A stretch of DNA of 64,000 bases from the NCBI RefSeq assembly GCF_004310425.1, contig NZ_SIUB01000002.1:124001-188000 (forward strand), read 5' to 3'. The DNA comes from Hansschlegelia quercus (GTDB lineage Bacteria; Pseudomonadota; Alphaproteobacteria; Rhizobiales; Methylopilaceae). Both the position numbers and the translations under genes were made by a program. This document shows positions 11,091 to 61,347 of this stretch, piece after piece (position 1 is the first letter of the stretch; the number at the start of each line of letters is the position of its first letter). The notes beneath the pieces were generated by a model, which made no database searches, was not told the origin of the DNA, and was given only the letters and a program-made list of their open reading frames with translations.

Positions 11091-11180
11091 GATCGGGATC
11101 GTCATCAGAACTCGGCGCTGCTATGGGAGCCTGATCCTTCACACGATCCCGGCTCTGCGCTGCGCTGCGACCGGGATGAC
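11091..11180. repeat. Intergenic palindromic repeat, family A copy 1
   Basis: The unit runs from GGATCGTCATC to CCGGGATGAC and contains the core ACGATCCCGGCTC. Copies with the same core and order are found at 17602, 20051 and 54194. It fills the gap between rpsI and the agmatinase gene. Confidence 0.75.
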
Positions 11181-20050: not shown

Positions 20051-20131
20051 CGGGATCGTCATCCAAGTCCAGCGCGGATCATGCTAGACGCCACATTCTG
20101 AAGACGATCCCGGCTCCGCAGCCGGGATGAC
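20051..20131. repeat. Intergenic palindromic repeat, family A copy 3
   Basis: It starts with CGGGATCGTCATCC and ends with the hairpin ACGATCCCGGCTCCGCAGCC followed by GGGATGAC. It is the shortest of the four copies, located between acuI and argC. Confidence 0.75.
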
Positions 20132-54193: not shown

Positions 54194-54300
54194 CGTCATT
54201 CCGGACAAGCGGCGGAGCCGCGCAGATCCGGGATCGTCGTCAGAACGCGCTCAATTCTGAGCACGATCCCGGCTCTACGCTACGCTGCGGCCGGGATGAC
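54194..54300. repeat. Intergenic palindromic repeat, family A copy 4
   Basis: An inverted structure from CGTCATTCCGGACAAGC to CCGGGATGAC lies between rpsR and the DUF2232 gene. It is the longest copy. Its left half starts like the family B arms, which suggests a common origin of the two families. Confidence 0.75.
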
Positions 54301-55895: not shown

Positions 55896-55904
55896 CGGGG
55901 CGCC

Positions 55905-56033
55905 GCCGTCATTCCGGGCCCATCCCGGAAGCAATCACCGCTGAGAAAATTTAGGAGGAGGCGCGACACGCGTGTGGTGCTTTTCTGCCGGCCGTCCCGG
56001 TGATGGATTCCGGGACAAGCCCGGAATGACGGC
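55905..56033. repeat. Family B inverted repeat (REPIN-like), copy 1
   Basis: Left arm 55905-55940 and right arm 55998-56033 are imperfect inverted copies, each itself palindromic (ATTCCGGG...CCCGGAAT). The right arm ends 5 bp from the stop codon of the GIY-YIG gene and is an exact 34-bp inverted match to the left arm of copy 2. Confidence 0.85.
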
Positions 56034-56038
56034 GGCGA

Positions 56039-56326
56039 TCAGACGAGCGTAGGATAGAGGTCCGTCCAATACGGATTGGACTGCTCGATGATGTTGACCT
56101 TGTAGTCGCGCTTCCAGCCCTTGATCTGCTTTTCGCGCGTGATCGCAGAAAGCGGATCGTCGAAGGTCTCGAAGTAAACGAGCCGCGTCACGTCGTGACG
56201 GGAAGTGAAGCTCTTCAAAAGCTTCTCGCGGTGCTCATAGACTCGTCGGATCAGATCGTTAGTTACGCCCACGTAGAGCGTCCCATGTCGGCGGCTCGCT
56301 AGGATGTAAACGTAGTAGCCGTCCAT
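56039..56326 (-). CDS. GIY-YIG single-domain nuclease (YhbQ/UPF0213 type) flanked by inverted repeats
   Basis: 95 residues consisting only of the GIY-YIG catalytic domain: YYVYILA (the GIY part) and TLYVG (the YIG part) near the N-terminus, Arg27/Arg28 at the place of the catalytic Arg in TNDLIRRVYEHR, and Glu65 in REKQIKGWKR as the metal-binding Glu. No DNA-binding domain is attached. Perfect 34-bp inverted repeats stand 8 bp before the start and 7 bp after the stop. That makes a compact unit resembling a mobile element. Single-domain GIY-YIG proteins are often multicopy in alphaproteobacteria. Confidence 0.9.
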   Translation of the reverse strand: MDGYYVYILASRRHGTLYVGVTNDLIRRVYEHREKLLKSFTSRHDVTRLVYFETFDDPLSAITREKQIKGWKRDYKVNIIEQSNPYWTDLYPTLV

Positions 56327-56334
56327 ACAACGCT

Positions 56335-56455
56335 CGTCATTCCGGGCTTGTCCCGGAATCCATCACCGTAGAGGAAGCAGAAATAAGCTGCCGCGGCTAC
56401 GATTCTAGTCTTGCCTCGTCGCGGTGATGGATTCCGGGACAGGCCCGGAATGACG
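56335..56455. repeat. Family B inverted repeat (REPIN-like), copy 2
   Basis: 34-bp arms at 56335-56368 and 56422-56455 match in inverted orientation with one mismatch and are separated by 53 bp. Each arm also folds into a hairpin around CTTGT. It lies between the GIY-YIG start codon and the erpA stop codon. Confidence 0.9.
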
Positions 56456-56467
56456 ACCGCGCGCGCG

Positions 56468-61227: not shown

Positions 61228-61347
61228 GCCGTCATTCCGGGCTTGTCCCCGAATGCATAACCGTGACGGCTCAGGCCTACGCGCAACGCCTGCCGATCGT
61301 CTGATCGCGCGGCGCTGATGGATTTCGGGAAAAGCCCGGAATGACGA
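61228..61347. repeat. Family B inverted repeat, decayed copy 3
   Basis: Left arm GCCGTCATTCCGGGCTTGTC and a right arm ending AAGCCCGGAATGACGAC are still recognisable, but the arms differ in several positions from copies 1 and 2. No GIY-YIG gene is present. Confidence 0.8.

Follow-up and report, generated by a model that had tools for sequence, protein, structure and literature searches.

A single-domain GIY-YIG nuclease gene inside CGTC-tagged palindromic repeats, a probable REPtron-like element of Hansschlegelia quercus

The 64,000-nucleotide stretch of the Hansschlegelia quercus genome analysed here (the window) carries a small GIY-YIG nuclease gene enclosed by palindromic REP arms with an unpaired CGTC tag. 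We consider it likely that this locus is a REPtron-like element, in which a single-domain GIY-YIG endonuclease sits inside its own cognate CGTC palindromes, these being also dispersed without a gene. The association of nuclease and palindrome is almost certainly real, and the anatomy of the locus, its recurrence, the match between nuclease clade and hairpin stem, the conservation of catalytic residues and the presence or absence of the block at fixed sites were all directly observed. Sequence comparison further suggests that the nuclease probably acts on its cognate REP, while the chance that such action drives the spread of the REPs appears to us evenly balanced. The preliminary description of this DNA had proposed a REP system with a GIY-YIG enzyme in place of the RAYT transposase; that pairing gained comparative support from flanking, clade pairing, selection, catalytic conservation and presence/absence, and the part concerning the enzyme's action on the repeats stays conditional in what follows.

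The nuclease gene and its palindromic arms

The nuclease gene occupies positions 56039-56326 on the minus strand, a 288-bp open reading frame of 95 amino acids plus stop whose product matches PF01541. It lies between two inner REP arms, one downstream of the gene (55998-56031, minus strand) and one upstream (56335-56368, plus strand), both with the CGTC tag toward the gene. As first described, these arms form an exact inverted pair (34/34 as reverse complements) and enclose the gene with margins of only 7 bp at 56032-56038 and 8 bp at 56327-56334. The reading of each arm as one half of a larger inverted repeat also held: positions 55901-55940 pair with 55998-56037 (88% over 40 nt), and positions 56331-56368 pair with 56422-56459 (95% over 38 nt). 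The gene is thus bordered by a downstream palindromic dimer (55905-56033; fold z -6.5) and an upstream one (56331-56459; fold z -12.1), whose outer arms lie at 55907-55940 (plus strand, located by inverted-repeat search and fold) and 56422-56455 (minus strand, an inverted-repeat pair). Self-folding of the arms was likewise borne out, each inner arm forming an 8-bp stem with a 5-nt loop when folded alone as DNA (z -3.8 and -3.6) and leaving CGTC unpaired; the stem is ATTCCGGG/CCCGGAAT, the loop CTTGT and the tail CCA. The outer arm at 55907-55940 is diverged and lacks the CCA tail, and folded alone it gives a 7-bp stem (z -3.4).

A third dimer of the same REP family, with no gene between its arms, lies at 61231-61345 (arms 61231-61256, plus, and 61320-61345, minus). 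Across the window, a 26-nt piece of the arm occurs five times at up to 3 mismatches (0 in 100 shuffles), and the 3.58-Mb genome holds ten copies of the arm core at up to 1 mismatch (control hits 0). Copy number is low; four of the ten copies surround the window nuclease gene, and eight of the ten sit in four pairs. The phase of the window locus (dimer-gene-dimer, inner tags toward the gene) is the minority one, since among 80 named relatives the tags point outward in 35, inward in 10, and are mixed or lack an arm on one or both sides in 35; the phase of the gene thus varies among relatives. The genome has two close-family GIY genes, the second of which has GTCATGCCCG...CGGGTATCCACGA arms. CGTC-type arms of another family (GTCATCCCGG...CCGGGATCG) were also seen in the window, at 54264-54300, 11144-11180 and 20105-20131. 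The type-F pattern occurs 20 times in the genome, yet clade F includes neither of its two close-family GIY genes.

The window protein matches a single Pfam family (PF01541, 2.6e-15) and is predicted by AlphaFold with a pLDDT of 92.5, the closest solved folds being UPF0213 protein BH0048 (E 8.7e-4, TM 0.57) and then Slx1 (E 2.8e-3). Residues Y7, Y18, G20, R28, H32, E65 and N84, which we take to be the catalytic positions of the GIY-YIG fold, are the same in all 46 aligned members picked from 71 diverse ones, and these seven are also found in each of 148 close members whose reading frames are clean, apart from Y18, kept in 147. Both the domain and the conserved catalytic residues of the GIY-YIG group are therefore present in the window protein. 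The gene is under purifying selection (pN/pS 0.11-0.40 in 12 pairs).

A superfamily of CGTC-tagged REPs was described in 2013 (Di Nocera et al.; PMC3733652). In the portions of that paper drawn on here, the superfamily spans five phyla, is centred on alphaproteobacteria, takes in dRS3 of Neisseria and RPE-4/RPE-6 of Rickettsia, and has no dedicated transposase; its members are defined by an unpaired CGTC, an 8-9 bp stem starting from AT, a loop of 4-5 nt and a CCA tail, and they are multi-copy, mostly as inverted dimers. The term GIY-YIG has 0 occurrences in PMC3733652. The window inner arms share with these REPs the CGTC tag, the 8-bp AT-starting stem, the 5-nt loop and the CCA tail, and the window family is likewise multi-copy (ten copies in its own genome) and arranged as inverted dimers. 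Whereas the same portions of the paper give no associated transposase (PMC3733652), we propose a nuclease partner at the window locus.

A REPtron, as portrayed in the relevant parts of two papers (PMC8266576, PMC3733652), combines GTAG-tagged REPs with a RAYT/TnpA-REP transposase. The window locus resembles it in that the gene for a DNA-cutting enzyme is bordered by its own palindromes, that gene-less dimers are dispersed, and that enzyme group and REP co-vary. It differs in that the enzyme is a GIY-YIG protein and not a HuH tyrosine transposase (PF01541 is the only Pfam match of the enclosed gene), and in that the tag is CGTC rather than GTAG. The locus is a nuclease-based REPtron analogue and not a REPtron member, because neither a HuH enzyme nor a GTAG tag turned up when each was looked for. 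We know of no strand-transfer chemistry for the GIY-YIG fold.

The single-domain GIY-YIG fold is shared with UPF0213 proteins (BH0048, PDB 1zg2; E. coli YhbQ), which are presumably of the COG2827 type. E. coli YhbQ is a distant relative, 23% identical over 87 residues and annotated as a DNA damage response nuclease; unlike the window gene, it has no GTCA arm within the roughly 600 bp searched around it. Slx1, which its PDB titles describe as a nuclease of branched DNA, has the GIY-YIG fold as well, is larger and partnered with Slx4, and to our knowledge has no link to repeats. Free-standing GIY-YIG homing endonucleases are encoded by small genes that spread by cutting and repair, and the window gene, also small, could spread in this way; unlike theirs, it is bordered by palindromes that are also found alone. 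Among the matches listed in a search of openly licensed PubMed Central papers (excluding preprints), none linked GIY-YIG genes with REPs, which by itself leaves novelty unproven. In the portions cited, the gene list of one Moraxella clade includes a RayT and a GIY-YIG gene (PMC9465073), neither being tied to flanking repeats, and RepRanger (PMC12306157) makes no mention of nucleases.

Recurrence of the palindromes and their pairing with nuclease clades

Named relatives of the nuclease (the best 80 of 430 confirmed matches) had a GTCA-tagged hairpin within 200 bp on both sides of the gene at 52 of 80 loci (47 with refined gene ends) and on at least one side at 64 of 80 with either version of the gene ends; for control ORFs at the same loci the corresponding counts were 10 and 63 of 334. 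GTCA ranked first of all 256 four-base tags, followed by TGTC and CGTC, which both overlap it, and the median tag was found on both sides at 0 of the 80 loci. Arm density at these loci was 5.3/kb within 200 bp vs 0.37/kb beyond 1 kb. It is the GTCA-tagged hairpin form that recurs, the stem varying between genomes. A strict search with the window's own stem, covering 110 loci, had suggested that most relatives lack the repeat; this was refuted, the search having misled because the stem changes with the nuclease clade.

Two further sets gave a similar picture. Sixty-one genomes related to that of the window yielded 86 matches, from which 80 loci were fetched and 78 were usable; after one of 65 close homologues (at least 70 bits) was dropped for a short flank, arms were found on both sides in 30 of 64 and on at least one side in 43 of 64, and 0 of the 12 distant homologues in these genomes had GTCA-tagged arms. 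In the class-level set, formed by the 30 best-matching loci from a search of 290 genomes (window gene included) less one with a short flank, the counts were 13 and 23 of 29. The standard detector found no arm in 16 of 80 named relatives and in 21 of 64 close homologues, and by eye many of the missed loci carry the same kind of hairpin with a CTCA, GTCG or similar tag, or with an imperfect stem; these are uncounted. Inverted similarity between the two flanks, scored with no reference to a tag, reached at least 20 in 33 of 80 named relatives, 31 of 65 close homologues and 5 of 333 control ORFs, with every shuffle scoring below 18, and this test finds fewer loci than the hairpin test. By their record titles, 15 of the 80 loci come from outside Proteobacteria (Chlorobi, Bacteroidetes, Ignavibacteria, Calditrichota, SAR202, Lachnospiraceae and others); many of these records are metagenome bins and may be mislabelled. 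Arms were found on both sides in 5 and on either side in 7 of these by the standard detector, and in 12 and 14 by a lax one; with the lax detector, the median tag reaches 2 of 80 on both sides and 21 of 80 on either.

Two named cases were also read. In Neisseria gonorrhoeae (L173) the region of the GIY gene lies amid CGTCATTCCCGC...GCGGGAAT arms of the dRS3 type, and in Sinorhizobium (L172, L187) the GIY gene lies between CCTCATCCCTGTG...CACAGGGATCCAG repeats, which to our understanding resemble the rhizobial RIME repeats.

In a tree of 27 nucleases from the window genus and two other genomes of the family, each group has its own palindrome. The pairing of flanks with clades was tested on the 25 genes of the genus, the two rows from other genera being left out. 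Flanks of the same clade in different genomes had a median similarity score of 33 (minimum 9, n=44), compared with 10 (maximum 13, n=19) for different clades within the same genome and 11 (maximum 30, n=237) for different clades in different genomes, and 0 of 20,000 permutations gave a difference as large as the one observed. The nearest flank neighbour belonged to the same clade for 23 of 24 genes, the exception being the window gene, which was tied. Leaving out pairs that share a genomic site, the same-clade median stayed at 32 (n=37). The clade labels A-F were assigned with the tree and the flanks already seen, and tree support is good for A, B and F and moderate for D (81/80) and E (87/83), C being grouped by hand; minus group C and the single gene X (22 genes), still 0 of 20,000 permutations reached the observed value and 21 of 22 nearest neighbours were of the same clade. 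A label-free comparison of protein identity with flank similarity gave a Mantel rho of 0.40 (0 of 2000 permutations). One genome, G007, carries four close-family nucleases with four different palindromes. Enzyme groups thus co-vary with their REPs, as in REPtrons, and this match could equally arise by linked descent of gene and arms, with no recognition between them.

The preliminary description had held that its proposal would fail if nuclease genes of this clade usually lay away from the repeat. The reverse was found: on reading, the window clade (D) had matching arms at four of four loci, although the automatic arm test detected them on one side only in G008 and on neither side in G011.

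Palindromes of other kinds surround two other groups of nuclease genes. Around a distant GIY-YIG group (13 loci below 60 bits; L224-L237) a CTCATSCTGAG or CTTCGAGAC motif lies on both sides at 8 loci and on either side at 10, and this motif flanks 0 of 65 genes of the close family. DUF559 (PF04480) genes, present in 31 of the 61 relatives, were seen within inverted CTCCC...GGGAG palindromes, often with GGTGAGGG (L275-L301; L186:930-1340). Of 30 such loci taken, 8 were dropped as partial or at a contig end; among the remaining 22, a CTCCC...GGGAG hairpin lies within 300 bp on both sides at 20 and on at least one side at all 22, against a background elsewhere of about 0.01-0.02 per 300 bp. One DUF559 gene, in Sphingomonas parapaucimobilis, was seen between sufB and sufC.

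Repeat copy number and occupied versus empty sites

A profile search of 290 alphaproteobacterial genomes matched the nuclease in 153, strongly in 98 (E < 1e-25, a cut-off of our choosing), with at most 11 matches in one genome. A broad REP pattern was counted in the same 290 genomes. The 98 genomes with a strong match had a median of 8 copies, with at least 10 copies in 42 of them, and the count was higher where a strong match was present (Mann-Whitney 5e-17, for genomes that are not phylogenetically independent). This difference held in four of five genome-size bins and was gone at 5-9 Mb (p 0.39); within 32 families the effect was weak (18 higher, 11 lower, 3 tied; p 0.019).

Numerous arms in genomes lacking the nuclease had also been named at the outset as a finding that would count against the proposal, and this was seen in part: 17 of the 192 genomes with no strong match have at least 10 copies of the pattern, and the congener G003 is a further case. 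One genome, G262, has 175 pattern copies and no nuclease match. In G003, where nothing matches the window protein, there are 80 type-A arms, a case of REPs persisting without the enzyme.

Across the 13 genomes of the genus, the copy number of a cognate repeat barely depends on whether the cognate nuclease is resident. Type-A arms numbered 3, 34, 34, 83, 26 and 143 in genomes with clade A and 16, 80, 49, 25, 4, 25 and 1 in those without; for type D the counts were 6, 9, 7 and 2 with the clade and 12, 0, 0, 0, 5, 0, 8, 3 and 9 without, and for type F 9, 16, 37, 15, 21 and 14 with it and 20, 16, 0, 2, 13, 2 and 17 without. Type E alone leans in the expected direction (21, 15, 28 and 15 with the clade; 1, 5, 0, 31, 6, 10, 1, 6 and 19 without).

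Presence and absence of the block could be followed at fixed sites. In Azospirillum lipoferum 4B a dimer-gene-dimer block in the same phase as that of the window lies between sufB and sufC, and base-level reading of five further Azospirillum records showed this site without REP-GIY-REP. The sufB-sufC gap of Shinella PSBB067 holds a GIY gene 46% identical to the A. lipoferum one, with other arms. At a site between fnrL and a response regulator in Sphingobium, the REP-gene-REP block is full-length in seven plasmids (three read at base level, another with its gene match split in two) and absent in four. No target-site duplication was seen at the Azospirillum and Sphingobium sites, where occupied and empty versions are strongly diverged at the junctions. 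A single symmetric palindrome was observed in two of the four empty Sphingobium sites (TYG64 and TYG74; L240, L241). Its sequence equals, or nearly equals, the one expected after a deletion running from the CCCCGGG of one arm to that of the other; it could be the scar of an excision or the state before insertion. Sinorhizobium K101 had appeared from its hit length to be an empty site and was rejected, the alignment showing that the gene is present and that the neighbouring repeat copies differ.

The window gene itself adjoins erpA, and its clade-D relatives in G005, G008 and G011 are not beside erpA. All 12 congeners have erpA, and no GIY/REP block was found in the 700-1100 bp after that gene, a region whose intergenic DNA is too diverged to give a clean junction.

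Alternative explanations and the proposed mechanism

A nuclease that resolves the hairpins or cruciforms of its cognate REPs would protect replication and be selected to stay near them, and would not mobilise them. Purifying selection, catalytic conservation and the fold similarity to Slx1 would all fit such a role, as would the few copies on plasmids (33 of 72,556 records) and the lack of any among 50,697 phage records at E 1e-5. A protector acting in trans, however, needs no position within a few bp of its substrate. Moreover, the window gene lies by erpA and its clade-D relatives (G005, G008, G011) lie elsewhere with arms that are still related, the block is present or absent at fixed sites, and some REP-rich genomes have no nuclease match. 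We therefore regard a purely protective role as rather unlikely.

The nuclease could instead be cargo, with the REPs moving by other means (replication slippage or a trans-acting transposase) and the gene surviving through a part in host DNA repair. Linked descent alone would match clade to REP, 17 of 192 genomes with no strong nuclease match are rich in REPs, and the distant E. coli YhbQ, a DNA damage response nuclease by its annotation, is arm-less within about 600 bp. Against this, the 80 loci contain 41 facing arm pairs 200-700 bp apart, of which 35 enclose the GIY gene, compared with 18 of 49 arm pairs in the other three orientations, at loci that were picked because a GIY gene was present. 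The association also persists across groups whose palindromes differ, the arrangement is repeated around two further nuclease groups, again with other palindromes, and up to 11 matches per genome are unlike a housekeeping gene. Carriage as a passenger thus seems unlikely to us. That CGTC REPs are simply so dense in intergenic DNA that any small gene looks flanked is highly improbable: 63 of 334 control ORFs do have an arm on at least one side, and a loose detector finds 21 arms in the window vs 13 on average and 20 at most across 30 resampled windows, but the both-side rate is 10 of 334 in controls vs 47-52 of 80, only ten close arms exist in the genome, four of them at the window gene, the arms match by clade, and the hairpin counts, the tag-free flank similarity and the clade-flank test all contradict it.

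The reading we prefer remains that of a nuclease acting on its own palindromes. According to this model, the GIY-YIG nuclease would be structure-specific and would recognise the hairpin or cruciform of its cognate REP (tag plus stem) when the DNA is single-stranded or supercoiled, and would then nick or cut it. Repair of the break would copy or move the REP dimer and, occasionally, the gene too. On this view the nuclease would be the partner that the CGTC REP superfamily (dRS3, RPE-4/RPE-6) has been missing. Its place inside recurring, lineage-matched repeats makes it a strong candidate for such a role in a very common class of bacterial repeats, and for the CGTC REPs it is the best candidate in this analysis.

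More broadly, small stand-alone endonucleases may form a general class, each inside its own palindrome family and driving its spread: GIY-YIG enzymes for CGTC/CTC-tagged REPs (dRS3, RPE and probably the rhizobial RIME-like repeats), a second GIY-YIG lineage with CTCATSCTGAG...CTTCGAGAC, and DUF559 with CTCCC...GGGAG. We put this forward tentatively, as an idea with slightly less than an even chance of being correct. If it is true, much of the short palindromic repeat content of alphaproteobacteria has nuclease partners. A specific nuclease partner would make the origin and persistence of CGTC REPs experimentally testable, and would suggest that the design of an enzyme inside its own palindromes arose more than once, with unrelated enzymes.
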